A program made the translations under genes and the position numbers. Of a DNA stretch of 64,000 bases, positions 942-21,907 are shown piece after piece; the stretch's first letter is position 1, and the number at the start of each line of letters is the position of its first letter. Below the pieces are notes generated by a model. It did not search any database. It had not been told where the DNA came from and was given only the letters and a program-made list of their open reading frames with translations. The stretch is from Sphingopyxis sp. (lineage in GTDB: Bacteria; Pseudomonadota; Alphaproteobacteria; Sphingomonadales; Sphingomonadaceae): positions 1-64,000 of the forward strand of contig NZ_JAEMQX010000006.1 of NCBI RefSeq assembly GCF_016463645.1, read 5' to 3'.

Positions 942-1829
942 TTAAACCCTGGCGCCGAACATGCGGCCGCCATTCGCCGCGATCAGCCCGTCGATGTCGT
1001 CGCCCCTATAGGCGGGGTCGGCCGAAGGACCGAAGGACGCCAGCATGTCCTGCGTCACCAGTTCGGCCATTTTCTTCCATTCGGGGTGGGTGAAGATCCA
1101 ATATTCACCCGCCTCGATCGCCTCGACCACGCGCGCGCCGATCCTGTCGGGCGACATGCCGCCGGCGAGCACGCCCTGCATCGCCTGGCTCGTCGCCGCG
1201 GCCTTGCCGACCTCGACCTCCACCGGGCGCAGTTCGCGCGTCGTCTCGACGATCCGCGTCGCCGACATGCCGGGCATCAGCACCGAAATATCGACACAGC
1301 TATCTGCAAGCTCGTTGCGCAGCGCCATCGCGATGCCGAGCGTCGCATATTTGGAGCTGATATAGGCCACCGAGATCGGCGGTGGCACGATCGCGACCAT
1401 CGAGCTCGTGATGACGAGGTGCGATGCCTCGCCGCTCGCCTTCATGTCGCCGAGGAAGGTACGGCAGGCATAGAGATGCGCGTGCGCGTTGACGGCATAG
1501 TTCCAGCGCCAGACGTCGGTGTCATATTGCTCGAACGGCCCCGATCCGCCGCCGACCCCGGCGTTGCTGAACAGGATGCGCACCGGCCCGAAGTCGCGCG
1601 CCCTCGCGCCTGCCTCCGACCAGCTTTCTTCGCTAGTGACGTCGAGCCGGAGGCCGAGCGCCTTGCCGCCTGCGCTACGCAGTGAGGCGGCTGCCGCTTC
1701 GGCTCCGGCACCGTCGATGTCGGCGAGGATCACCGACGTGCCTTTCGCGGCGAGCGCCTTGGCAGTGGCGAGGCCGAGCCCGCTCGCGCCGCCGGTGATG
1801 AAGGCGGTCTTGCCCGCGACGTCGGTCAT
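942..1829 (-). CDS. SDR family oxidoreductase
   Basis: MTDVAGKTAFITGGASGLGLATAKAL, S/YxxxK region (AYISSKYA); start overlaps upstream MFS stop by 4 bp. Confidence 0.9.
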   Translation of the reverse strand: MTDVAGKTAFITGGASGLGLATAKALAAKGTSVILADIDGAGAEAAAASLRSAGGKALGLRLDVTSEESWSEAGARARDFGPVRILFSNAGVGGGSGPFEQYDTDVWRWNYAVNAHAHLYACRTFLGDMKASGEASHLVITSSMVAIVPPPISVAYISSKYATLGIAMALRNELADSCVDISVLMPGMSATRIVETTRELRPVEVEVGKAAATSQAMQGVLAGGMSPDRIGARVVEAIEAGEYWIFTHPEWKKMAELVTQDMLASFGPSADPAYRGDDIDGLIAANGGRMFGARV

Positions 1830-3121
1830 TCGGCGAAGTCCTTTTCGAGGTGGCGGGTCATGCGATACTGCGCGATGCCGGCCGCGGCGGCGAAGGGCAT
1901 CAGCGCCATCAGCGCCCAGCGCAGGCTGTCGACGCCGTGGGCGTCCTTGAGCGCATCGCTGACGATCCCGGCGAACAGCGGGCCGAGCCCGAGACCGACG
2001 ATGTTGAACATCAGCATCAGCACGGCGGCGGCGGTCGCGCGGCTGCGCGGCGGGGTCAAATTCTGCACCAGCGCCAGCGCGGGGGCGACATAGGCGGTGC
2101 AGGCCGCCATCGGGATCAGCATCAGCGCGAGTGAGGCCTGCCAACTGTCGACCAGAAGGGCAGCGATGAAGGTCGGAATCAGCACGGCGGTCGCAAGCGC
2201 CGGGATCGAGCCATAGGCGCGCGCCGAACGTTTGGCGCGGTGACTGACGAGCCAGCCGCCGCCGAGAATGCCGATGCCGAAGGTGATGCCCGCCGCCGGG
2301 CCGAACCAGGTCGCCATCGCGTCGAGCGGCATCTTCTGCGTGCGCATCAGGAAGGCGGGAATCCAGTTGAGCATGCCATAGCTCACGAAGGCGGCGAGCC
2401 CGCTGCCGATCATCACCATGCGCAGTGACGGACGGCGCCAGAACATGGCGAGGCTCTGCGCAAAGGGCAGGGCTTCGTCGGCGGGCTTGTGGGTGTCCAT
2501 CGCGCCGCGTGCGGGTTCGCGGACGAGCCAGATCAAGAGCGGCGCGACGAGAATGCCGACGATCCCGATGACGATGAAGGCGTTTCGCCAGCCGATATGC
2601 GCGGCCGCCCACGCGCCGAAGGTTGCGCCGACGAAGACGCCGAACGGACCGTTGCAGGTGAAGAGGCCGATCGCAAGCGGGCGCTGCGCGGGCGGGTAAT
2701 AATCGGCGATGACCGACAGCGACGGCGCGGTGCCGCCGGCTTCGCCCGCGCCGACGCCGAAGCGCATCAACGCCAGTTGCCAGAAGTTCGAGACCATCCC
2801 GCACGCCGCGGTGAAGCCGCTCCACACGACGCAGGCGATGCCGATCAGCTTCACCCGGTTCCAGCGGTCGGCGACCATCGCCACCGGTACGCCGGCCGCG
2901 GCATAGAAGAGCGCGAAGGCGAAGCCGGTGAGCAGCCCGAATTGCGTGTCGCTGAAATCCATCTCGGCGCGGATCGGTTCGACGAGCACCGACAAGAGCT
3001 GGCGGTCGACGAAGTTGATCGTGCCGACGATGAACAGCATCGCGAGCGCGACATTGCGGCGCAGCGCAAGGCCGCTGTCGGACGCCAGGGCGCCTGCGTT
3101 AACGGCGGTGGCCTCGGTCAT
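1826..3121 (-). CDS. MFS transporter
   Basis: 431-aa polytopic protein, NFVDRQLLSVLVEPIRAEM and GxxxADRWNR loop. Confidence 0.9.
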   Translation of the reverse strand: MTEATAVNAGALASDSGLALRRNVALAMLFIVGTINFVDRQLLSVLVEPIRAEMDFSDTQFGLLTGFAFALFYAAAGVPVAMVADRWNRVKLIGIACVVWSGFTAACGMVSNFWQLALMRFGVGAGEAGGTAPSLSVIADYYPPAQRPLAIGLFTCNGPFGVFVGATFGAWAAAHIGWRNAFIVIGIVGILVAPLLIWLVREPARGAMDTHKPADEALPFAQSLAMFWRRPSLRMVMIGSGLAAFVSYGMLNWIPAFLMRTQKMPLDAMATWFGPAAGITFGIGILGGGWLVSHRAKRSARAYGSIPALATAVLIPTFIAALLVDSWQASLALMLIPMAACTAYVAPALALVQNLTPPRSRATAAAVLMLMFNIVGLGLGPLFAGIVSDALKDAHGVDSLRWALMALMPFAAAAGIAQYRMTRHLEKDFAE

Positions 3122-3160: not shown

Positions 3161-3178
3161 TACTTAGGTATTTAAGTT
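3161..3178. promoter_or_regulatory. candidate operator site A (TACTTAG-GTAT-TTAAGTT)
   Basis: Degenerate 18-bp palindrome in divergent MFS/SDR intergenic region; same pattern at three other divergent promoters. Confidence 0.6.
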
Positions 3179-3228
3179 TATCTGTCAATGTGCTTTACGG
3201 TAGCGACAGGATGACCGGGAGAGAAGAT

Positions 3229-3996
3229 ATGGATATCAAGGGCAAGCGCGCGATCGTCACGGGCTCGGCGGGCGGCATCGGCCGGGCGACGGCGGTGATG
3301 CTGGCGGCGCGCGGCGCGGCGGAAATCGCGCTCGTCGACGTGAAGGAAGAAGCGCTGGCCGAAACGGCGCGGCTCGTCGAGGCGGAGGGAACGAAGGCGA
3401 CAACGCACAGTCTCGACCTGTCGGACGTTCCCGCGGTCGAGACGTGGTTCCAAGCCCATGGCGACGTCGATATTCTCCACAACAATGCCGGCGTCGTGTC
3501 GGGCCTGCCGCAATTCCCCGACGTCGACGCGGCGCGCATCCGCTGGATCATCGACGTCAACATCACTTCGCTCGTCGCGGCGACGCAGATCGCGGTACAG
3601 GCGATGAGGAAGCGCGGGGGCGGGGTGATCGTCAACACCGTTTCGACCGTCGCGCTCGGCACCGGTTTTTACGACGCGATGTATGCAACCACCAAGGCGG
3701 CGGTGATGATGTTCACGCGCTGTTGCGCGCCCTTGAAGGAGGAATGCAACGTCCGCGTCGCGGGGATGCTGCCCGGGCTGGTCGACACGCCGATCCTCGA
3801 CACAACCGGGGCAGGGGGCAAATCCGAATGGATGAAGACCGTGCTCGCGAACAATGAGGCATGTCTGCCCGAGGATATCGCGGGCGGTGTGATCAAACTG
3901 GTCGAGGACGATAGTCTGGCGGGCGGCGACTGGGTCGCGGTGCGGCGGCTGGGCGGCAAGGTCGAATATCAGTGGGGGCATGCGGATACCATCTGA
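3229..3996 (+). CDS. SDR family oxidoreductase
   Basis: MDIKGKRAIVTGSAGGIGRATAVMLAARG; NNAGVVSG; YATTKAAV. Confidence 0.9.
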   Translation: MDIKGKRAIVTGSAGGIGRATAVMLAARGAAEIALVDVKEEALAETARLVEAEGTKATTHSLDLSDVPAVETWFQAHGDVDILHNNAGVVSGLPQFPDVDAARIRWIIDVNITSLVAATQIAVQAMRKRGGGVIVNTVSTVALGTGFYDAMYATTKAAVMMFTRCCAPLKEECNVRVAGMLPGLVDTPILDTTGAGGKSEWMKTVLANNEACLPEDIAGGVIKLVEDDSLAGGDWVAVRRLGGKVEYQWGHADTI

Positions 3997-3998
3997 TA

Positions 3999-4018
3999 CC
4001 CTCCCGCAAGCGGGAGGG
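3999..4018. terminator. bidirectional terminator-like hairpin between convergent genes
   Basis: CCCTCCCGC-AA-GCGGGAGGG followed by GAAAAG. Confidence 0.6.
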
Positions 4019-4027
4019 GAAAAGAGA

Positions 4028-4738
4028 TCAGCGCACCGGCGCTTCCAGCATGTTCCTGCCGAACAAATTCGACCATTGCTCGTCGGTCAGCACCGGGCGC
4101 GCGCTCGACAGGTTCGCGGCGTTCTTGACGTCGGTTCCCGCGACCACCGCGGGCCGCTCGCCGATGCGCGCGAACCAGTCGGCGACCGCGGGATAATCGT
4201 CGAGCGTCAGCCCGATCGCACGGATCGCGCGCGTCCACGGCCAGCAGGCAATGTCGGCGATCGAATATTCCCCGGCCAGATATTCGGCTTCGGTCAGGCG
4301 TCCATCGAGCACGTGGAGCAGCCGCAGAGTCTCGTTGCGATAGCGTTCGACCGGATAGGTCTGCCCCTCGGGCGCGTAGCGGATGAAATGATGCGCCTGC
4401 CCCTGCATCGGGCCGAAACTCGCCATCTGCCACATCAGCCATTGCTGCGCCTGGCTGCGGCGGCGCGGGTTTTCGGGCAGCAGCTGGCCGCTCTTCTCGG
4501 CAAGATAGAGCAGGATCGCGCCGCTTTCGAACACCGGGAGCGGCGCGCCGCCGCCGACGGGTTCATGATCGACGATCGCCGGAAGCCGCCCGTTCGGATT
4601 GATCCGCCGATATTCGGGAGTCAGATGGTCGCCCTCGAGCATATTCATCGCGATGAGCCGGTGCGCAAGCCCCACCTCCTCGAGCATGATCGAAACCTTG
4701 TGCCCATTCGGCGTTGGCGTGAAATAGACGTCGATCAT
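4028..4738 (-). CDS. glutathione S-transferase family protein
   Basis: MIDVYFTPTPNGHKVSIMLEEVGLAHRLIAMNMLEGDHLTPEYRRINPNGRLPAIVD. Confidence 0.9.
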   Translation of the reverse strand: MIDVYFTPTPNGHKVSIMLEEVGLAHRLIAMNMLEGDHLTPEYRRINPNGRLPAIVDHEPVGGGAPLPVFESGAILLYLAEKSGQLLPENPRRRSQAQQWLMWQMASFGPMQGQAHHFIRYAPEGQTYPVERYRNETLRLLHVLDGRLTEAEYLAGEYSIADIACWPWTRAIRAIGLTLDDYPAVADWFARIGERPAVVAGTDVKNAANLSSARPVLTDEQWSNLFGRNMLEAPVR

Positions 4739-5232
4739 GCGGGATTTCCTTCGGCGAAAATGGCGCGCGCGGCGGCGAAAGCGGCTTCGAACGCCTCTCT
4801 TCCCGCAGGGTAGGCGACGACGGTCAATGTCACGCCCGCGATCTTCCAGCCGTCCCGCCGCACCAGCCGATGCGTGTAGCGGCCGATGAGATCGCCGAGG
4901 AGCGCGCGGTTCTCGACGCCGACAACATGGACGGCATCGACGATGCTCGTCACCGTCGCGCGGTCGCCGCCGATGGTCGCGATGATGTTGTGCAATTGGT
5001 GCGCGGTCGCGTCGAAGCCTTCGAGCGTCCGGCAGCGGTATGTCCATTCGTCGGCGGACACCGTCGCGACGAGGGAACCGATCGAACCATAATCGATCGC
5101 GATCTCGTCGATGAAGAGTGCGCGATAAGCGCTCCAGTCGCGCGCATCGAGCGCGGTGGCATAACAGGTCACGACCGCGGCCGCCGCTTCCCTGTCGAGG
5201 AAAGCTTGAGCCGCGGCCGATCCCTGGGACAT
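4735..5232 (-). CDS. SnoaL-like / nuclear transport factor 2 family protein
   Basis: 165-aa ORF, LDREAAAAVVTCYATALDARDWSAYRALFIDEIAIDYGS. Confidence 0.8.
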   Translation of the reverse strand: MSQGSAAAQAFLDREAAAAVVTCYATALDARDWSAYRALFIDEIAIDYGSIGSLVATVSADEWTYRCRTLEGFDATAHQLHNIIATIGGDRATVTSIVDAVHVVGVENRALLGDLIGRYTHRLVRRDGWKIAGVTLTVVAYPAGREAFEAAFAAARAIFAEGNPA

Positions 5233-5246
5233 CGTCGAATCCGATC

Positions 5247-7559
5247 CTAGAATTTGATCCCGGCCTCGACCGAAATGTTGCGGGTGGGCTCAAGATAGAG
5301 AATCGCCCGCGGAACCGGGGTGATCGGCGAGGGCAGGTTGAACGCGCTGCCGATCGTCTTCTGGTTGGTCAGATTCTTGCCGACGAGGGCGAGGTGCCAA
5401 CGGTCGTCCTGATCGGCGAGTTGCACGCGCAGGTCGAGTTTCACATAGCCGTTCTGGACGCCGAAGATCGGGCTCTGATTGTCCGAGTTGAAATATTTCG
5501 ACCGGCCTGCCCCGACGCCGGTGATGTCGAGCTTCATATCGTCCGACAGGTCGAAGCGCGCGTGTGCCGTGACGCTTCCCGTCCATTTCGACGCATAGGC
5601 CACCGGATAGCCCGCAAGATTGTTCGTTGCCGGGGTACAGGTGACCGGTTGCGACGCGAGGCAGGCCGCACCCGGATAATCGTCATATTTGATGTCCGAA
5701 TAGGCCGCCGACGCGCTGATGTCGAAATTGGGGACGGGGAAGATGCTGAGCGATCCTTCGATCCCTTTCGACGTTGCGCTCGCCGCATTGCCGGTCAGAT
5801 AGCTCGAAGTCGCGGGCTGATAGACCGAAACCTGCAGATCCTTGAATTGCGTGTGATAGGCCGAGACGTTCGCGACGACCTTGCCGTCGAACAGCGTCGA
5901 CTTGATGCCCGCCTCGAAATTTTCCGACTGTTCGGGTTCGAAGGTGAAGGTGCTGTCGACCGTACCGAGCGTGTTCGAGACGAAGCCGCCCGACTTGGAC
6001 CCGCGGCCCCAGGTCGCATAGAGCATGACGCGCGGCGCGACGTCATATTGCACCGTGACCGAGGGATCGACGTTGCCTTCGCTGATCGAGCCATCGGCAT
6101 TGGTGATCGGACGCAACGCGAAGGGCTGTCCGTTCAGCCCGTCCGACGCATAGGGGAGTGTGGTGCGGAACGAACCGTCCTTCCTGGTGTGGGTATAGCG
6201 CAGGCTGCCGATGACGCGCAGCGCGTCGGTCGCGTTGAGCGTGCCCTGTCCGAACACCGACCAGCTTTCGGCCTTCTGCCGGAAAATGCTGTCGATGCGG
6301 GCAAGATAGGGCCCGTCATAGATCGGAATGCGCGGATCGGTCGGCGTGGCGCCGGGAATGGTCAGGAACAGGTCGGGGATGTTGAAGCCCTGATATTGTT
6401 CGAGCGTATAGTTCGATTTGTCGTAATAGGCGCCCGCTATGAACTCGAAGGTCTCGCCGACCGGCGACAGGATACGGATTTCCTGCGAGAACTGGTCGAA
6501 GCGTTCGGGGAAGGCATTATAGACCGAGTTGGCGGTAAAGGCGCCGCCGCTGTTCGGGATCGTCTGGTCGAAGCCGTTGACGATCTTCGACTTGAACCAG
6601 CTGTAGCCGGTGACCGAGGTCAGCGTGAAATCGCCGAGCGCGAGATTGCCGACGCCCGAGATCATCACCGACTTGTTGTCGTTACCCTCGTCGCCGAGCG
6701 CCGAGCGTTCGAGATAGCGGTCGGTCTGCGGGTCCTGGTCGCTGGTCAGCGGGCTCGACACGGTGATGCCGCCGATGACCTCGCGGTTTCCATATTCGAC
6801 CTTCGCGGTGTAATCGAAATTGGCCGACGGCTCCCACTTCAGCGTCAGGCGCAGCAGCTGCGACTTGATTTCAGGATCGTCGTGATCCTTGGCGCGGTTA
6901 TAGATATAGCCGTCCTGATTGACGATCTTGTACGCGAAGCGCGCGCCGAGCGTGTCGGTGATCGGTCCCGACAGATAGCCCGAAAAGTCGGTGCCCTTGT
7001 GATCGAAATTATAGAGGCCGGTGATCGCGCCCTCGAAATCCTTCGTCGGCCCCGCCGACACTACACTGACCGCGCCCGCCGCCGTGTTCTTGCCGAACAG
7101 GGCGCCCTGCGGACCACGCAACACCTCGACGCGTTCGAGGTCGAAGAAGGGGGCCTGTGCCTGGCGGTTGCGACCCGCGTAAATGCCGTCGACATAGAGC
7201 GAGACCGACTGGTCGAAGGCGAAATTCGCCGGCGGCGAACCGAAGCCGCGGATATAGATGACGTCGTTGCCCGCGGTCGACTGGACGAAGACGTTCGGCG
7301 TGTAGTTCATCACCGCCTTGATGTCGCTCGTGTTGAATTCGGCGAGTTTCGCGCCGCTCACCACTTCCATCGAAATCGGCACGTCCTGCAGGCTCTGCTC
7401 GCGCTTCTGCGCGGTGACGATGATTTCGTTGTTGCTGCTGTCGTCGATCCCCGCCGCGTCGGCGGGCGCCGACTGTGCCATCGCCGGTGCGGCATTGGCG
7501 AGCATCGCGATCACCGCGGCGCCGGACAGCAGAAACTGGTTGCGAGCCGTCATATTCAC
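5247..7559 (-). CDS. TonB-dependent receptor
   Basis: Signal peptide, EIIVTAQKREQSLQDVPISMEVVSG TonB box/plug, C-terminal ...ISVEAGIKF. Confidence 0.95.
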   Translation of the reverse strand: MNMTARNQFLLSGAAVIAMLANAAPAMAQSAPADAAGIDDSSNNEIIVTAQKREQSLQDVPISMEVVSGAKLAEFNTSDIKAVMNYTPNVFVQSTAGNDVIYIRGFGSPPANFAFDQSVSLYVDGIYAGRNRQAQAPFFDLERVEVLRGPQGALFGKNTAAGAVSVVSAGPTKDFEGAITGLYNFDHKGTDFSGYLSGPITDTLGARFAYKIVNQDGYIYNRAKDHDDPEIKSQLLRLTLKWEPSANFDYTAKVEYGNREVIGGITVSSPLTSDQDPQTDRYLERSALGDEGNDNKSVMISGVGNLALGDFTLTSVTGYSWFKSKIVNGFDQTIPNSGGAFTANSVYNAFPERFDQFSQEIRILSPVGETFEFIAGAYYDKSNYTLEQYQGFNIPDLFLTIPGATPTDPRIPIYDGPYLARIDSIFRQKAESWSVFGQGTLNATDALRVIGSLRYTHTRKDGSFRTTLPYASDGLNGQPFALRPITNADGSISEGNVDPSVTVQYDVAPRVMLYATWGRGSKSGGFVSNTLGTVDSTFTFEPEQSENFEAGIKSTLFDGKVVANVSAYHTQFKDLQVSVYQPATSSYLTGNAASATSKGIEGSLSIFPVPNFDISASAAYSDIKYDDYPGAACLASQPVTCTPATNNLAGYPVAYASKWTGSVTAHARFDLSDDMKLDITGVGAGRSKYFNSDNQSPIFGVQNGYVKLDLRVQLADQDDRWHLALVGKNLTNQKTIGSAFNLPSPITPVPRAILYLEPTRNISVEAGIKF

Positions 7560-7620
7560 CCTCCCATGGAGCCTATCGCTGCCGGTCCCGGAAAGTCTTC
7601 CGATCCGTCAATCTGATTGA

Positions 7621-7638
7621 CCCTTAGTATACTAATTG
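7621..7638. promoter_or_regulatory. candidate operator site B (CCCTTAG-TATA-CTAATTG)
   Basis: Core TTAGTATACTAA perfect palindrome in divergent TBDR/DUF3237 intergenic region. Confidence 0.5.
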
Positions 7639-7676
7639 TTTTATGCTTGTCCATAGGCAGGAAGAGGATTCGCATC

Positions 7677-8183
7677 ATGAACGCAGAAAATTCACGCAGG
7701 GCCCCGGCCGCGCTGGCCACCCGTCATCTATGCACCGTCGAGTTCGAGGTGGGTGGTGGTATCATCGGGATCGGGGCCTCGCCCTTCGGCGATCAGCGGC
7801 TCGGCTATATCAGCGGCGGACGGTTTTTCGGTCCGCGGGTCAACGGCATAGTCCTGCCCGGCGGCGGCAACTGGTCGCGGAGCGGACGCCTCGGCGACGA
7901 TGCCTCGGTCGGCACCTTCGATGCCCGCGCGGTGTGGCAAACCGACGACGGCGACCTCATCTATCTGAGCTATACCGGGCGCAGCATCATTCCCGACGAT
8001 GTGCGTGCGACCTTCGCCGATCCGGGGGTGCCCGACGCCGATCCGTCGCGATATTATCTGCGAATCGCGCCGGTGTTCGAGACCGCGAGCGCGAAATATG
8101 CCTGGCTCAACGGCGTGCTCGCGGTGGGCGTCGGCGAACGCACCGATTTCGGCGTGCGGCATGTGATCCACGAGGTGTTGTGA
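7677..8183 (+). CDS. DUF3237 domain-containing protein
   Basis: MNAENSRRAPAALATRHLCTVEFEVGGGIIGIGASPFGDQRLGYISGGRFFGPRVNG. Confidence 0.75.
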   Translation: MNAENSRRAPAALATRHLCTVEFEVGGGIIGIGASPFGDQRLGYISGGRFFGPRVNGIVLPGGGNWSRSGRLGDDASVGTFDARAVWQTDDGDLIYLSYTGRSIIPDDVRATFADPGVPDADPSRYYLRIAPVFETASAKYAWLNGVLAVGVGERTDFGVRHVIHEVL

Positions 8184-8908
8184 TGATCGACCTCCATTAT
8201 TCCGCGACGCCGAACGGCCAGAAGATCGCGATCATGCTCGAGGAGATCGGTGCGCCCTATCGTGTCATCCCCTATGATATCTTCGATGGCGACCAGCTGA
8301 CCGCTGAATTCGGGCGCATCAATCCAAACCACAAGCTGCCGGCGATCGTCGATCGGGATCCGGCAGGGGAGAGCGATCCGGTGACGGTGTTCGAATCGGG
8401 CGCAATCCTGCAATATCTCGCCGAGAAGAGCGGGCGCTTTCTGCCCGCCTCGGGTGCCGCGCGCGCGGCGACCCTGTCGTGGCTGACCTGGCAGGTCGCG
8501 GGGCTGGGGCCGATGGGCGGGCAGGCGAGCCATTTCCTGCGCTATGCCCCGGCTGGGCAGGATTACGCCGTCGAGCGTTATACGAAGGAACTGAACCGCC
8601 TGCTCACCGTGCTTGAAAAACGGCTCGAGAAAAGCGCCTATGTCGCGGGCGACGAATACAGCGTTGCCGATATGGCGATCTGGCCGGGTCGCGCGTCGGC
8701 GTTCGTGATGGGCATGGGACTCGACGAATGGCCGGCGATGCACGGCTGGTTCGAGCGCATTCGTGCGCGACCGGCGGTGATGCGAGCGATGGCGCGCGAG
8801 GATCTGAAAGCGCCGGCCAAATATGTCGGCCGGCACCAGACGCTCGACGAGAAGGAATGGTCGAACATGTTCGGCGCGGCGAACCACGCGGCGGTAGCGA
8901 AGGACTGA
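8183..8908 (+). CDS. glutathione S-transferase family protein
   Basis: MIDLHYSATPNGQKIAIMLEEIGAPYRVIPYDIFDGDQLTAEFGRINPNHKLPAIVD; start overlaps preceding stop. Confidence 0.9.
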   Translation: MIDLHYSATPNGQKIAIMLEEIGAPYRVIPYDIFDGDQLTAEFGRINPNHKLPAIVDRDPAGESDPVTVFESGAILQYLAEKSGRFLPASGAARAATLSWLTWQVAGLGPMGGQASHFLRYAPAGQDYAVERYTKELNRLLTVLEKRLEKSAYVAGDEYSVADMAIWPGRASAFVMGMGLDEWPAMHGWFERIRARPAVMRAMAREDLKAPAKYVGRHQTLDEKEWSNMFGAANHAAVAKD

Positions 8909-8911
8909 GGT

Positions 8912-9616
8912 TCAGCGCTTCGCGTGCTGGCGATCGCCCCACAGGATTGCGCGGTGCTCGTCGGTGAAGCCGGTGAGCCCGCCCTCGATCGTTTCGGCGC
9001 GGGCGACGCCGACAGTCATCCCTTCGGCAACGGCCGGGCGTTCGAGCATCGCGGCGCCCCAGCGGTCGACGTTCGGAAAACGCCCCGCCTTTTCGACCAG
9101 CTGGCGGCGCAGATAGGGCAACGTCGCCATGTCGGCGATCGTATAATCGTCGCCCCCGAGCCACTCGGCTTCGCCCAGCCTCCTGTCGAGCACCATCATC
9201 AGCCGGTCGACCTCGCGACTGTATCGCGCAATGGCATATTCATGCCGGTCCCTGGCATAGTGGGTGAAATGCGCCTCCTGCCCGAACATCGGGCCGACGC
9301 CCGACACCTGGAACATCAGCCATTGCCAGCAGATCGCGCGCTTCGCCGGATCGGCCGGCAGAAAGCGCCCGGTCTTTTCGGCGAGATAGAGCAGGATCGC
9401 TCCCGTCTCCCATAGGACGAAGCCCTGACCGTCCGGCCCCTCGTCGTCGACGATCACCGGCGTCTTGTTATTCGGGTTGAGCGCAAGGAATTCGGGGGTC
9501 AGTTGGTCGCCCGCAAGGATGTCGATATATTCGAGCCGCCAGTCGAGCCCCATCTCGAGGAGCGCGATCGCGATCTTGCGCGCGTTGGGAGTCGGGCCGC
9601 CGTAGAGGGTGATCAT
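8912..9616 (-). CDS. glutathione S-transferase family protein
   Basis: MITLYGGPTPNARKIAIALLEMGLDWRLEYIDILAGDQLTPEFLALNPNNKTPVIVD. Confidence 0.9.
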   Translation of the reverse strand: MITLYGGPTPNARKIAIALLEMGLDWRLEYIDILAGDQLTPEFLALNPNNKTPVIVDDEGPDGQGFVLWETGAILLYLAEKTGRFLPADPAKRAICWQWLMFQVSGVGPMFGQEAHFTHYARDRHEYAIARYSREVDRLMMVLDRRLGEAEWLGGDDYTIADMATLPYLRRQLVEKAGRFPNVDRWGAAMLERPAVAEGMTVGVARAETIEGGLTGFTDEHRAILWGDRQHAKR

Positions 9617-9620
9617 GGCG

Positions 9621-10784
9621 TCAAACCTCCCGTCCGAGCCAACGCGCGAGCACCTCGTCTGTGTCCTGTCCGACGCCGAGCGGGGCAGGTCGGCGGACGC
9701 TGCCGGGGGTGGCCGACAGCTTCGGGAAGACGCCCTGCATCGTGACCTCGCCGAACTCCGCGTCGGTGACCGTCACCAGCGCTTCGCGCGCCGCGAAATG
9801 CGGGTCGGCGAGCATGTCCTCGGCATCGTACACGCGGCCCGCGGGCACGCCGGCCTCGACCATCTTCGCCTCGAGTTCGTCGATCGTCAGCGTCGCGGTC
9901 CACTCCCCGATCAACGCGTCCAGCTCCTCCTGCCGCGCACCGCGCGCGCGGTGCGTCGCGTAGCGTTCATCGCCCGCGAGTTCAGGCCGGCCCATCGCGG
10001 CGGCGAGCCGTGCGAAGACCCCGTCCTGGTTGGCGCCGATCAGATATTCGCCGTCCTTGCACGGATAGACGTTCGAGGGCGCGATCGCGGGGAGAGTGGA
10101 GCCGGTTCGGCGGCGCTTGGTGCCGCTCGCCGAATAGTCCGACACGGTCGATTCCATTACCTGGAGCACCGCTTCATAGAGCGCGGAATCGACGATCTGG
10201 CCTTCGCCGGTCTTGCTGCGATGATGGAGCGCGGCGAGTGCGCCCATGCACCCGTATGTGGCGGCGAGCGTGTCGCCGATCGACACGCCCATGCGCGCGG
10301 GCGGCAGGTCGGGATAGCCGACGATGCCGCGCCAGCCGCCCATCGCTTCACCAATGCCGCCGAAACCGGCGCGCGCCGAATAGGGACCGGTCTGGCCGTA
10401 ACCCGACACACGCACGACGATCAGCCCGGGATTGGATTTGCGCAGCTCGGCGGGGTCGAGGTTCCATTTCTCGAGCGTCCCGGGGCGGAAATTCTCGATC
10501 AGTATGTCGGCCTTGGCGATCAGTTCGCGTGCGAGGGCTTGCCCCTCTTCGCTGCGCAGGTCGACCGCGACCGAATATTTGTTGCGCGCGATCACGCGCC
10601 ACCAGCTTGGGCGGTCGCCCTGACCCCAGTTGCGCATCTGGTCGCCGGTCACAGGCGGTTCGAGCTTGACGATCTCGGCGCCCATGTCGCCGAGGAGCTG
10701 GCCGCAGAAGGGGCCGGCGATGAGCTGCCCCATCTCGACCACCCGGATGCCTTCCAGCGCGCCCCCGCTGCCCGTCTCGCTCAT
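9621..10784 (-). CDS. CaiB/BaiF family CoA-transferase
   Basis: LEGIRVVEMGQLIAGPFCGQLLGDMGAEIVKLEPP; start trimmed to MSETGSGG. Confidence 0.93.
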   Translation of the reverse strand: MSETGSGGALEGIRVVEMGQLIAGPFCGQLLGDMGAEIVKLEPPVTGDQMRNWGQGDRPSWWRVIARNKYSVAVDLRSEEGQALARELIAKADILIENFRPGTLEKWNLDPAELRKSNPGLIVVRVSGYGQTGPYSARAGFGGIGEAMGGWRGIVGYPDLPPARMGVSIGDTLAATYGCMGALAALHHRSKTGEGQIVDSALYEAVLQVMESTVSDYSASGTKRRRTGSTLPAIAPSNVYPCKDGEYLIGANQDGVFARLAAAMGRPELAGDERYATHRARGARQEELDALIGEWTATLTIDELEAKMVEAGVPAGRVYDAEDMLADPHFAAREALVTVTDAEFGEVTMQGVFPKLSATPGSVRRPAPLGVGQDTDEVLARWLGREV

Positions 10785-10842
10785 ATCGTTCCTTTCGCGG
10801 CCGACTCTGATAAGACGGCCTGCTACGCCCATGGCCTTTGTA

Positions 10843-10860
10843 TACTTAGAATGCTATGTA
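10843..10860. promoter_or_regulatory. candidate operator site C (TACTTAG-AATG-CTATGTA)
   Basis: 18-bp palindrome with one arm mismatch, in divergent CoA-transferase/HMG-CoA lyase region. Confidence 0.65.
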
Positions 10861-10902
10861 ATTTTCAACCTGCTAAATGACTCGGGATAATCGGGGCGCA
10901 AG

Positions 10903-11805
10903 ATGTTGAAAAACCATGCTGTGGAACTGGTCGAGGTCGGTCCGCGTGACGGGCTACAGAATGAGGTGGCGATCATATCGACCGCCGACAAGCTCGCGCT
11001 GGTCCGCCGCGCGATCGATTATGGCGTACGCCGGATCGAGGTGACGAGCTTCGTCAATCCGAAGAAGGTGCCGCAACTCGCCGACGCCGAAGAACTTGTC
11101 GCGATGCTGCCCGACCGCGACGATCTGACATATATCGGCCTCGTGCTCAACCGGCGCGGTGCCGAGCGCGCGCTTGCGACCGGACGCATCGACGAACTCG
11201 GCGCGGTGTGCGTAACGAGCGACGGTTTCGGCGTTCGCAATCAAGGCCAGAGCTCTGACGAATCGCTCGCCGCAGCGATGGAGATCGTCGGGCTGGCGAA
11301 GGAAGCGGGGCGCAGCGGACAGATCACCATCGCCACCGCTTTCGGCTGTCCGTTCGAGGGCCGGGTGGCGATCGAGCGCGTCGTCGAGATGGCGAAGCGT
11401 GCGGCCGAGGCGCGTCCGCGCGAGATTGCGCTTGCCGATACGATCGGCGTCGGCGTGCCGGCGCAGGTGTCGGAGATGGTCGGGCGGATACGCGAGGCGG
11501 TCGGCGATCTGCCCGTGCGTGTCCATTTCCACAATACGCGGGGCACCGGCATCGCCAATGTCTGGGCGGCGGTGGAGGAAGGCGCGGCGACGGTCGACGC
11601 ATCGCTCGGGGGGCTCGGCGGCTGCCCCTTCGCGCCCGGAGCGGCAGGCAATGTCGCGACTGAAGACGTCGTCTATATGCTCGAACGCAGCGGGGTCGTC
11701 ATGGATATGGACTTTCCGAAGATGGTCGAAGCAGCAGGCTGGCTGACGGGCGTGATGGGGCGTCCCTTGCCCGCGATGGTCAGCAAGGCGCCCGCCTTCC
11801 CCTAA
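10903..11805 (+). CDS. hydroxymethylglutaryl-CoA lyase family protein
   Basis: VELVEVGPRDGLQNE; GGLGGCPFAPGAAGNVATED. Confidence 0.93.
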   Translation: MLKNHAVELVEVGPRDGLQNEVAIISTADKLALVRRAIDYGVRRIEVTSFVNPKKVPQLADAEELVAMLPDRDDLTYIGLVLNRRGAERALATGRIDELGAVCVTSDGFGVRNQGQSSDESLAAAMEIVGLAKEAGRSGQITIATAFGCPFEGRVAIERVVEMAKRAAEARPREIALADTIGVGVPAQVSEMVGRIREAVGDLPVRVHFHNTRGTGIANVWAAVEEGAATVDASLGGLGGCPFAPGAAGNVATEDVVYMLERSGVVMDMDFPKMVEAAGWLTGVMGRPLPAMVSKAPAFP

Positions 11806-12713
11806 AAGGTCGCGAGCAGCGCCATCACGACGCCCCCGACGACGAGCAACAGGCCGAAAATCTCGTGCCAGCGGACCGGTTCGCGCAGGTAGAAGTGGGC
11901 GAACCCGATCGTGAAGACGACCTCGACCTGCCCGACGATCCGCACCAGCGCCGCAGGCGCCGCGGCAAAGCCGATGTACCAGCAGGCCGAACCGAGCGCC
12001 GACAGCAAGCCGACCTGGCTCGAATTGCGCCACGTGCGGAACACCGCGCGCAGCGTGTCGCGGTCGCGCAGCGCGACCCATAGCATGTGCAGCCCGGTCT
12101 GGATCGCCATCACGACGACGAGCGTGACGAGCGCCGATCCGATCAGGTCGACATTTTCGAGCTCGGCGGTGGCGAGCTTCACCGCGATCGCCGCGAGCGC
12201 GAACATCGACCCCGCGCCGAGGCCGCAGAGCGCCGCGGGCTGGCCGAGCGCGCGCCAGATCTCGCGCTTCGAAACACCGCGTCCTGCAAGTGCGAGCACC
12301 AGCACCCCCGCGACGCCCGCGACGATCCCGATCCATGCGAGCAACGGCAGCCGCTCGCCGAGAAAAATCGCGGTGACGAGCGCCGCCTGCACCGCCTCGG
12401 TCTTCGAAAAGGCGGTGCCGACGACGAAACCGCGATGGCCGAACGCCATGATCAGCAGGATCGTGCCGGCCATCTGGGTGATCGCGCCCGCGAGGGCGAA
12501 GCCCGCGAAAGCGGCCCCGAACGCGGGGACCGCCTCGTGCCGGATCGCCAGCCAGATGGCAGCGAAGGCGAGGGCGAACGGAAGGCCGTAAAGATAACGG
12601 ACGAGACCCGCGCCGCTGACGCTGAGTTCGGCGCGCAGGCGCTGTTGCAGCGCGGTGCGCCACGCCTGGAACAGGCCGCCGAACAGCGATGCGGGAAGCC
12701 AGATCGGGTTCAT
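11802..12713 (-). CDS. DMT (EamA-type) transporter
   Basis: MNPIWLPASLFGGLFQAWRTALQQRL, approximately ten hydrophobic segments. Confidence 0.8.
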   Translation of the reverse strand: MNPIWLPASLFGGLFQAWRTALQQRLRAELSVSGAGLVRYLYGLPFALAFAAIWLAIRHEAVPAFGAAFAGFALAGAITQMAGTILLIMAFGHRGFVVGTAFSKTEAVQAALVTAIFLGERLPLLAWIGIVAGVAGVLVLALAGRGVSKREIWRALGQPAALCGLGAGSMFALAAIAVKLATAELENVDLIGSALVTLVVVMAIQTGLHMLWVALRDRDTLRAVFRTWRNSSQVGLLSALGSACWYIGFAAAPAALVRIVGQVEVVFTIGFAHFYLREPVRWHEIFGLLLVVGGVVMALLATF

Positions 12714-12778
12714 GCCGCCGACCGGACCGGTGCTGCGATATCGACTCGTCTTCTCCCGTTCATTCTGCCCCCATGCAA

Positions 12779-12796
12779 TACTTTGATTACTAAGTA
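12779..12796. promoter_or_regulatory. candidate operator site D (TACTTTG-ATTA-CTAAGTA)
   Basis: 18-bp palindrome with one arm mismatch, in divergent DMT/acyl-CoA dehydrogenase region. Confidence 0.65.
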
Positions 12797-12937: not shown

Positions 12938-13951
12938 ATGGCCGAACTTGACCTGCCGCTGGGCGAAGCACAACAGATGCTGCAGGACAGCGTCCAGCGT
13001 TTCCTTGCCGATAACGAGCGCCCCGGCTGGCGCGACCTGTGCGAAACGCTTGGCCTCGCCGGCATCGCGCTGCCCGAAAGCGTCGGCGGTTTCGGCGGCG
13101 GCATGATCGACATTGCGGTGGTGATGGCCGAGCTGGGCCCGGCGCTCGCGGGTGCCGACTGGCTTTCGCATGTCGCGGCGACGGCACTCCTTGCGCGCGT
13201 TGCACCCGATCATCCCGCGCTCGCCGATCTGGCAGCAGGCAGCCGGCGGATCGCGATCGTCTGTAGGGCTTCGACGGCGGCGATGCCGGCCGTCGACGAT
13301 GGGCTGGTTCGCGGCAGTGCGGCGCTGGTCGCGGGCGCGGCGGAGGCCGACCTGCTCCTGATCGCGAGCGACGAGGCGTTGCTGTTCGTCGCCGCCGACG
13401 GCGACAAGATCGAACAGCGGCATCGGATCATGCATGACGGCAGCGTTTCGGCCGACCTTGCCTTCACGCTCAAGCCCGGCGATGCCGCGATGCTCGCGAA
13501 CGGCGATGACGCGCGCGCATGGGCCGAGCAGGCGAACGACCTGATCCTTGCCGGACGCTGCGCCGAGGCGGTGGGGTTGATGCAGCGGATGATCGCGGAC
13601 AGCATCGACTATCTCGGTCAGCGCACGCAGTTCGGCAGCCCGATCGGGCGCTTCCAGTCGTTGCGCCACCGCGCGGCCGACATGAAGCTTGCGGCGATGA
13701 AGGCGGCGGCGCTCACCGAGGTGGCAATCCTCGCGGTCGATCAGGGGCGCGCCGACCGCGCGCAGGCGGTCAGCGCGGCGTGTATCGAGGTCGGCGACGC
13801 GGTGCGCACGGTCGGCGAAAGCGCGGTGCAGATCCACGGCGCGATGGGATTGACCGAGGAGCTCAGCCTTGGCGGTCATTTCAAGCGCGCGCTCGCGATC
13901 GCCGCGGCGTTCGGGCCGCGCGCCGGTCATCTCGCGCGGTTTGCGGTCTGA
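12938..13951 (+). CDS. acyl-CoA dehydrogenase family protein
   Basis: YLGQRTQFGSPIGRFQSLRHRAADM; VQIHGAMGLTEE. Confidence 0.9.
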   Translation: MAELDLPLGEAQQMLQDSVQRFLADNERPGWRDLCETLGLAGIALPESVGGFGGGMIDIAVVMAELGPALAGADWLSHVAATALLARVAPDHPALADLAAGSRRIAIVCRASTAAMPAVDDGLVRGSAALVAGAAEADLLLIASDEALLFVAADGDKIEQRHRIMHDGSVSADLAFTLKPGDAAMLANGDDARAWAEQANDLILAGRCAEAVGLMQRMIADSIDYLGQRTQFGSPIGRFQSLRHRAADMKLAAMKAAALTEVAILAVDQGRADRAQAVSAACIEVGDAVRTVGESAVQIHGAMGLTEELSLGGHFKRALAIAAAFGPRAGHLARFAV

Positions 13952-15266: not shown

Positions 15267-16016
15267 TCAGGCGGCGCGCGCACCGACGAAGCCGAGCCCT
15301 GCGGCGATCTGGATCGACTGCGCGCGCCCCGTCGCGCCGAGCTTCGCCGCGGCGTTGCGGAGGTGGAAGCGCACCGTCGATACCGACAGCGACAGGATGA
15401 TGCCAATCTCGCCGTCGGTCTTTCCCGCCGCCGCCCAGCGCAGGCACTGGACCTCGCGCCGCGTCAGCGTTTGCGGCACCGTGGCGTTGCGCGGGCGCCC
15501 GCGCGCCTCGTTGTGCGTCGCGATCAGCTTGACCGCGAGATTGTGGAGGTTGCCGGCGTGTTCGGCGAAGATGGCCTCGACCCCCACCGGCTCGCGCGAA
15601 CACCAGAAGACCGCGCCGACGAGCCCGCGCGGGAGGTGCACCGGCGCGATGATCGCCTCGCCGAAATTGGGCGTGTTCTTCGCCTGCGAGCAGTCGACCT
15701 CGTCGAGCAGGTGCGTCGAGCGCCACATGCCGAGATGCCCATCGCTGTAATAGAAGGGTTCGGCGACAAGCCGCGCGGCAGTCAGGAAGGTGAGCTGCAG
15801 CGCCAGCTTGCGGTCGCGCCAATAGGCATAGCTCGGATCGACCCAGTGAAAGCTGGTTTCGGCATAGGGGCGGCCTTCCTCGTCGCTCATCGGTTCGGGG
15901 TCGCCAAGGTCGGCCTGCGCTGCGACATAGGGCAGGCCGATCGCGTCGCCGGCGGCCTGCACCGCTGCGATCAGCGCGGGCATTTCTGCCCAGCATTCGG
16001 CCCTCTGATCGGTCAC
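15267..16016 (-). CDS. LuxR family transcriptional regulator (possible autoinducer-binding-type N-terminus)
   Basis: C-terminal LTRREVQCLRWAAAGKTDGEIGIILSLSVSTVRFHLRNAAAKLGA; ~170-aa N-terminal domain. Confidence 0.85.
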   Translation of the reverse strand: MTDQRAECWAEMPALIAAVQAAGDAIGLPYVAAQADLGDPEPMSDEEGRPYAETSFHWVDPSYAYWRDRKLALQLTFLTAARLVAEPFYYSDGHLGMWRSTHLLDEVDCSQAKNTPNFGEAIIAPVHLPRGLVGAVFWCSREPVGVEAIFAEHAGNLHNLAVKLIATHNEARGRPRNATVPQTLTRREVQCLRWAAAGKTDGEIGIILSLSVSTVRFHLRNAAAKLGATGRAQSIQIAAGLGFVGARAA

Positions 16017-21271: not shown

Positions 21272-21907
21272 TTATCCGTGAAGGCTCATCAGCGAATCCA
21301 TCAGCCCGTCGTCGGCGCTCGAACAGACGCCGAGCACCAGTGCCTCCTCAAAGCCGTCGGCGACGACATAGGCGTGGCCCATCGACGAATCGATGTAGAT
21401 GCCCTGACCGACGTCGAGCGTGACGGGATCGTAGAATTCGCTGTGCACCTCGATCCGGCCTTCGAGGACATAGATGAACTCCTCGCCCTGATGATGGACG
21501 AGTTCGCCGAATTCGCGCGCGCTGTGCGCGCGGATGCGCGTCAGGATCGGGATCATCCGTTTCTGGCGCAAATCGGTGCAGAGATAATGATAATCGTAAT
21601 TGTCGGTTGTGACGCGCGCCGCGCGCTCGATCGTCCCGATGCTGCGGCGCCCGGTCACACGCGGCGCCATCTCTTCCTCATCCTCGGCGAACAGGTCCGA
21701 CATGCGAATCTTGAGTCGCTGGCTCAATTGCTGGAGCTTGTCGTAGCTGAGCGTCAGCCGGTCATGTTCGACCTTGGACAATGTCGATACGGGAATGCCC
21801 GACTTCGCGCTCATTTCCTTGAGCGTCCAGCCGTTTCGCGCGCGAATCCCCTTCATCACCGCGCCGAGCGTCGGCGGGGTTGCACGGTCCGCCATCAGTT
21901 TTTCCAT
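21272..21907 (-). CDS. XRE family transcriptional regulator with C-terminal cupin domain
   Basis: IRARNGWTLKEMSAKSGIPVSTLSKVEHDRLTLSYDKL; HHQGEEFIYVLEGRIEVH. Confidence 0.93.
   Translation of the reverse strand: MEKLMADRATPPTLGAVMKGIRARNGWTLKEMSAKSGIPVSTLSKVEHDRLTLSYDKLQQLSQRLKIRMSDLFAEDEEEMAPRVTGRRSIGTIERAARVTTDNYDYHYLCTDLRQKRMIPILTRIRAHSAREFGELVHHQGEEFIYVLEGRIEVHSEFYDPVTLDVGQGIYIDSSMGHAYVVADGFEEALVLGVCSSADDGLMDSLMSLHG

Follow-up and report, generated by a model that had tools for sequence, protein, structure and literature searches.

We analysed the first 64,000 nucleotides of contig NZ_JAEMQX010000006.1 of Sphingopyxis sp. (assembly GCF_016463645.1), hereafter the window, in which four 18-bp palindromes, A to D, lie in a catabolic island. 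Sequence comparison indicates that A to D are shared switch sites of a system conserved across Sphingopyxis and its relatives. We put at about 0.82 the probability that they are the operators of one MarR-family regulator, MarR1, encoded on contig C88 of the same 4.5-Mb draft assembly (G000); its binding and repression, its inducer and the substrate are what we infer from these comparisons. The palindromes and MarR1 would probably switch on uptake and breakdown genes for an organic compound together. The letters and coordinates of the four sites are exactly as quoted in the original prediction, which was made from the window alone, and each site was confirmed to lie between two divergent genes:

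3161–3178, no strand: operator A, TACTTAGGTATTTAAGTT, between the MFS transporter (minus) and SDR2 (plus)
7621–7638, no strand: operator B, CCCTTAGTATACTAATTG, between the TonB-dependent receptor (minus) and the DUF3237 gene (plus)
10843–10860, no strand: operator C, TACTTAGAATGCTATGTA, between CoA-transferase III (minus) and the HMG-CoA-lyase-like gene (plus)
12779–12796, no strand: operator D, TACTTTGATTACTAAGTA, between the EamA/DMT transporter (minus) and the acyl-CoA dehydrogenase (plus)

Compared with the pattern TACTTAG-N4-CTAAGTA, A carries two mismatches and C and D one each; B has more than three over the 18 bp and one over the 14-bp core CTTAG-N4-CTAAT. Three matches at ≤3 mismatches were found in the window against 0.09 expected, and none of 100 shuffles reached three. 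A weight matrix was derived from the six best sites of the other contigs, with the window sites left out; the six had themselves been found through the original consensus, and the test is thus out-of-sample but not fully independent. Among all 18-mers of the window, the matrix ranked C (28.2), D (25.0), B (21.8) and A (15.3) as the top four. The best score in 300 simulated windows was 16.2, which C, D and B exceeded; because A scored below it, A is significant only jointly with its conservation. The consensus of 170 distinct sites was (A/T)TA(C/G)TTAG-NATN-CTAA(G/C)TA(A/T), with TTAG and CTAA nearly invariant. The centre is constrained to NATN, contrary to the free N4 first proposed, and the palindromy therefore spans the whole 18 bp. 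Extra half-sites 9 bp from an operator were seen at window 10834–10851, overlapping operator C (score 10), and at L013 (C88) 3958–3975, overlapping the ACS1 site (score 17); at both places two operators look as if they share one half-site.

Conservation was assessed in 70 Sphingopyxis genomes, with the best 30 loci examined per site. Operator A scored at least 17 in 29 of 30 loci and 15.9 in the remaining one, at 50–51 bp from the SDR2 start. Operator B was kept in 30/30 loci (17 of 18 columns invariant), and the 18 bp of operator C were identical in all 30, at 41–43 bp from the start codon. Operator D scored at least 17 in 21 of 30 loci; it was kept at every close orthologue and absent only among homologues of ≤76% identity, several of them in genomes that lack the island. 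Spacing to the start codon was nearly fixed for A, B and C among these best loci, and mean column identity was 92–100% in the sites compared to 71–89% elsewhere between the genes. Outside Sphingopyxis, in G072, G145 and G192, gene order is reshuffled and the sites move along with the genes. The matrix gave 153 hits across the homologous loci, all of them intergenic (118 divergent, 35 co-directional and none convergent), and no hit fell within coding sequence in 530 kb of these loci. The motif is thus not equally frequent in coding or convergent regions, and orthologous islands keep the sites (21–30 of 30 Sphingopyxis loci); neither of the two results that the original prediction had named as refuting it was seen.

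The host genome was scanned by pattern and not by matrix, so that weaker sites may be missed. Matches at ≤3 mismatches comprised three of the four window sites, three on C88, two on C211, one on C124 and two off-consensus ones. On C88, one site (AACTTAGTATGCTAAGTA, C88:2088–2105) lies between a LeuD-like gene and MarR1, just upstream of the latter; another (TACTTAGTATACTATCTA) lies between MarR2 and the divergent acyl-CoA ligase 1; the third has a MetE-like gene on one side and a second acyl-CoA ligase on the other. A weaker C88 site was found between MarR1 and a co-directional FMN reductase gene; the divergent placement proposed for the regulon thus holds for A to D but not for every site. 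The original prediction had suggested looking for a site next to a TetR/MarR/GntR-type gene, and one was found at a MarR gene on C88. The two MarR genes are:

C88:2182–2772 (G000): MarR1, a MarR-family gene with its own copy of the site
C88:3412–3864: MarR2, a second MarR gene

Of the two C211 sites, one separates a glyoxalase-family gene from a flavoprotein gene and the other stands before a TonB-dependent receptor. The only perfect consensus match, TACTTAGAATACTAAGTA, was at 154–171 of C124 (L012), near the contig end and before an MHYT-GGDEF-EAL gene. In locus L068, an MHYT-GGDEF-EAL gene with a perfect site stands a few kb upstream of LeuC; because of this gene order, C124 is probably just left of C88. 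The two weak three-mismatch matches at C15:19130 and C118:1654, the latter near the edge of a called open reading frame, have off-consensus centres (ACGA and ATCG) and were set aside as background. A reversed-pattern control (51 matches at three mismatches) was dropped as an unfair background because reversal creates GAATC/GATTC words; genomes lacking MarR1 took its place.

C88 ends with the 55 bases that open the window, and the assembly holds no further copy of this 55-mer. In G299, the corresponding genes run on unbroken across the C88/window junction. The overlap (window coordinate = C88 position − 16160) places MarR1 at about −13,978 to −13,388, approximately 13.4 kb left of window base 1. 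A regulator gene outside the window had been predicted, and MarR1 is the candidate found there; the further statement that the island itself holds no regulator was not borne out, as MarR1 lies within the same island, which continues leftwards for about 14 kb beyond the window start. The island includes its own regulator, and the window edge merely cut it off. The regulon is also larger than predicted, with further sites on C88, C124 and C211.

Both its sequence and its predicted fold make MarR1 a typical MarR protein. It scored 54.8 bits for PF01047 (cut-off 24.6) and 46.0 for PF12802 (cut-off 27.0), and its AlphaFold model (predicted local distance difference test score 89.5) has the MarR fold with helical dimerisation ends and a wing. 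The best PDB matches of the model were all MarR proteins, with TM(target) up to 0.90, including DNA-bound SlyA and OhrR. MarR1 scored below the curated SlyA model NF002926 (46.8 bits vs cut-off 120) and the HpaR model TIGR02337 (54.4 bits vs cut-off 121.2). Its true start is probably near C88:2272.

Co-occurrence was examined in 301 genomes of the family, counting the motif at ≤1 mismatch and MarR1 orthologues at ≥55% identity. The motif was present in 13 genomes and MarR1 in 15, with both in 9 (Fisher P = 7e-11), and MarR1 is present in every one of the seven genomes that hold at least two sites. The four genomes that carry the motif but lack MarR1 show a single site apiece, a background of approximately 0.004 per Mb, and site density was about 86-fold higher in genomes with MarR1. 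A search for MarR1 gave 63 named loci, mostly from Sphingopyxis, and almost every Sphingopyxis locus has a site in front of MarR1. Orthologues that keep this site, down to 57% identity, show hardly any variation in the recognition-helix segment GMREPTTVVALKGL. The loci of three MarR1 relatives (L112, L114 and L115) hold few or no regulon genes. These results support the proposal of one dimeric regulator, which would bind at all divergent pairs. Two other regulator genes of the window, LuxR (15267–16016) and XRE-cupin (21272–21907), were rejected because neither has an adjoining site scoring 9 or more and because the site-adjoining regulator at other regulon loci is a MarR protein.

The same data bear on whether A to D arose by chance as AT-rich palindromes in GC-rich intergenic sequence. 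Taken singly, B and A are imperfect and A falls below the best simulated window, but the out-of-sample matrix puts all four first, sequence and spacing are conserved in up to 30 genomes, and the 86-fold enrichment with MarR1 and the 153:0 ratio of non-coding to coding hits leave chance with practically no probability.

A second candidate is MarR2, which might regulate the sites alone or together with MarR1. It stands beside the site shared with acyl-CoA ligase 1, it occurs in 10 of the 301 genomes and co-occurs with the motif (P = 3e-7), and a paralogous island in G299 again pairs one MarR1-like with one MarR2-like gene. However, in G072 and G283, which carry both motif and MarR1, MarR2 was not found genome-wide (E ≤ 1e-25); G295, with MarR2 but not MarR1, shows no motif at ≤1 mismatch; and in L105, L110 and L111 the site at the MarR2 position persists with no MarR2 in the neighbourhood. 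With its co-occurrence also weaker than that of MarR1, MarR2 was rejected as the main regulator, and we consider a role for it at these sites unlikely. In G277 (C1:2283746–2284186), the MarR2 orthologue contains an in-frame TAG and may therefore be a pseudogene; the regulon sites remain there. The paralogous island of G299 (L055, G299:C1:166165–186164) contains MarR1-like (41–45%) and MarR2-like (39%) genes, TonB-dependent receptors, DUF3237, MFS, CoA-transferase and GST genes, and the sites TACTTAGTTTGCTAAGTA and TCAATAGTATTCTAACTA. The MarR1-like and MarR2-like pair may be a recurrent unit.

Consensus promoter boxes were found around the sites, for example leftward ones at A (TTGACA-N17-AAGTAT) and C (TTGAAA-N18-TATACA). 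These predicted boxes suggest that the operators sit in or over core promoters, which favours repression by MarR1, through blocking of RNA polymerase, rather than activation. The palindrome might instead be a symmetrical promoter element and no operator, since TAGTATACTA has TATACT on both strands as back-to-back -10 boxes and the sites, with their -10-like words, lie about 40–65 bp from most start codons. We consider this very improbable: the motif is limited to one gene set and to MarR1 genomes and is not found genome-wide, the strongest constraint falls on TTAG/CTAA and not on the -10 positions, conservation extends over at least 18 bp, and the predicted boxes flank the operator at several sites. 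With MarR1 as repressor, one dimer would occupy the single 18-bp site of each intergenic region and, overlapping or abutting the core promoters, would repress both divergent transcripts, including that of marR1 itself. A substrate-derived small molecule, most likely an early acyl-CoA, would free the DNA of MarR1, and its release would jointly induce uptake (TonB-dependent receptor, MFS and DMT) and a CoA-linked degradation pathway. The inducer is perhaps an acyl-CoA; a CoA thioester is a plausible guess, no more, because two acyl-CoA ligase genes have their own operators.

Several observations weigh against MarR1 as the regulator of A to D. The conservation within Sphingopyxis partly reflects shared ancestry, since the flanks are still 71–89% identical. 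Six genomes with MarR1 lack any site at ≤1 mismatch, and the relatives in L112, L114 and L115 (70–75% identity) carry the same helix with no site nearby. MarR2 too adjoins a site. The predicted -35/-10 boxes are consensus matches only, and are weak at D.

The window genes around the operators are as follows:

3–536, minus: carboxymuconolactone-decarboxylase-family (AhpD-like) gene, its end shared with the C88 end (55-bp overlap)
536–931, minus: SnoaL_2-domain gene
942–1829, minus: SDR1
1826–3121, minus: MFS transporter, first gene left of operator A
3229–3996, plus: SDR2, orthologue in 37/70 Sphingopyxis
4028–4738, minus: GST1, downstream of the TonB-dependent receptor on the same strand
4735–5232, minus: SnoaL_4-domain gene
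5247–7553, minus: TonB-dependent receptor
7677–8183, plus: DUF3237 gene, orthologue in 52/70 Sphingopyxis
8183–8908, plus: GST2
8912–9616, minus: GST3, downstream of the CoA-transferase
9621–10784, minus: CoA-transferase family III, best NCBIfam score succinate-glutarate type, below cut-off
10903–11805, plus: HMG-CoA-lyase-like gene, orthologue in 54/70 Sphingopyxis
11802–12713, minus: EamA/DMT transporter
12938–13951, plus: acyl-CoA dehydrogenase, homologue in 39/70 Sphingopyxis

C88 carries a LeuC/LeuD-like pair, FMN reductase, acyl-CoA ligases, two alpha/beta hydrolases, an APH-type kinase, a second enolase, 2-hydroxyacid dehydrogenase, and MetE-like, glyoxalase-family, GST and SMP-30-family proteins. 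The second enolase (L013, G000:C88, 7763–9079) shares 44% identity with the housekeeping copy at C42 and stands in what looks like an operon with the genes for acyl-CoA ligase, the APH-type kinase, 2-hydroxyacid dehydrogenase and hydrolases. It keeps E208, K341 and K392 (E. coli numbering), which we take to be the catalytic residues. SHRSGET is changed to SARSGES and the substrate loop SGAST to AGASR, and because of these changes its substrate may differ. Tentatively, the regulon might encode an undescribed pathway of about 30 genes in which the 2-hydroxyacid dehydrogenase, the APH-type kinase and the active-site-altered enolase act serially on a CoA-derived or organic-acid intermediate, together with a LeuCD-like hydratase, the MetE-like protein and GSTs, and MarR1 senses a pathway product.

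These results turn a loose cluster of annotation-level genes into one regulon with a named candidate regulator, an operator consensus and target promoters. The compound that would lift repression offers a route to the pathway substrate, and with the inducer established, operator and regulator together could be used as a sensor. Pathway marker genes occur in 52–54 of the 70 sampled Sphingopyxis genomes, and partly in Phenylobacterium and other genera. Literature searches on the motif, on Sphingopyxis MarR regulons and on the gene set found no relevant description. MarR-type control itself is already known, and this regulon is a further case, one without an earlier description in the literature searched.

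Among known MarR systems, the HucR site of Deinococcus radiodurans, TACTTAGATGTCTACCTA, may resemble the present operator. HucR likewise uses a single MarR site in a divergent intergenic region with ligand release (PMC5487221), but it controls uricase and senses urate, and the target genes are unrelated. The operator core TTAG-N4-CTAA equals the site proposed for SlyA, TTAGCAAGCTAA, of the SlyA/RovA proteins of Enterobacteria (PMC5797941), and the MarR1 model has the same fold, with DNA-bound SlyA among its best structural matches. Unlike that of SlyA, the present operator is longer and stricter, with TA-S flanks; MarR1 falls below the SlyA model cut-off; and SlyA antagonises H-NS at many genes, whereas MarR1 would act on a local catabolic island. 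Parallels are also seen to the hydroxycinnamate repressors CouR of Rhodococcus jostii RHA1 and FerC of Sphingobium sp. SYK-6, which share with MarR1 a MarR gene inside its own catabolic cluster, an inverted repeat at divergent promoters with the box repeated at several promoters, and a CoA-ligase and CoA-thioester pathway, here read from the genes (PMC4737184; PMC5487221). CouR acts on a pair of divergent promoters through a single inverted repeat and is released by p-coumaroyl-CoA (PMC4737184), and induction by CoA thioesters has been reviewed as an emerging common property of MarR proteins in lignin-derivative catabolism (PMC5487221). The CouR box is cATTGA-N5-TCAATg, compared to TAS-TTAG-NATN-CTAA-STA here, and the present system differs from CouR and FerC in gene content and in having about a dozen sites on four contigs. 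Most likely, MarR1 represses from single operators in the manner of CouR or FerC and is freed by a pathway intermediate. A system combining CouR/FerC-like MarR control with a SlyA-type operator core, outside the curated subfamilies tested, is well supported.

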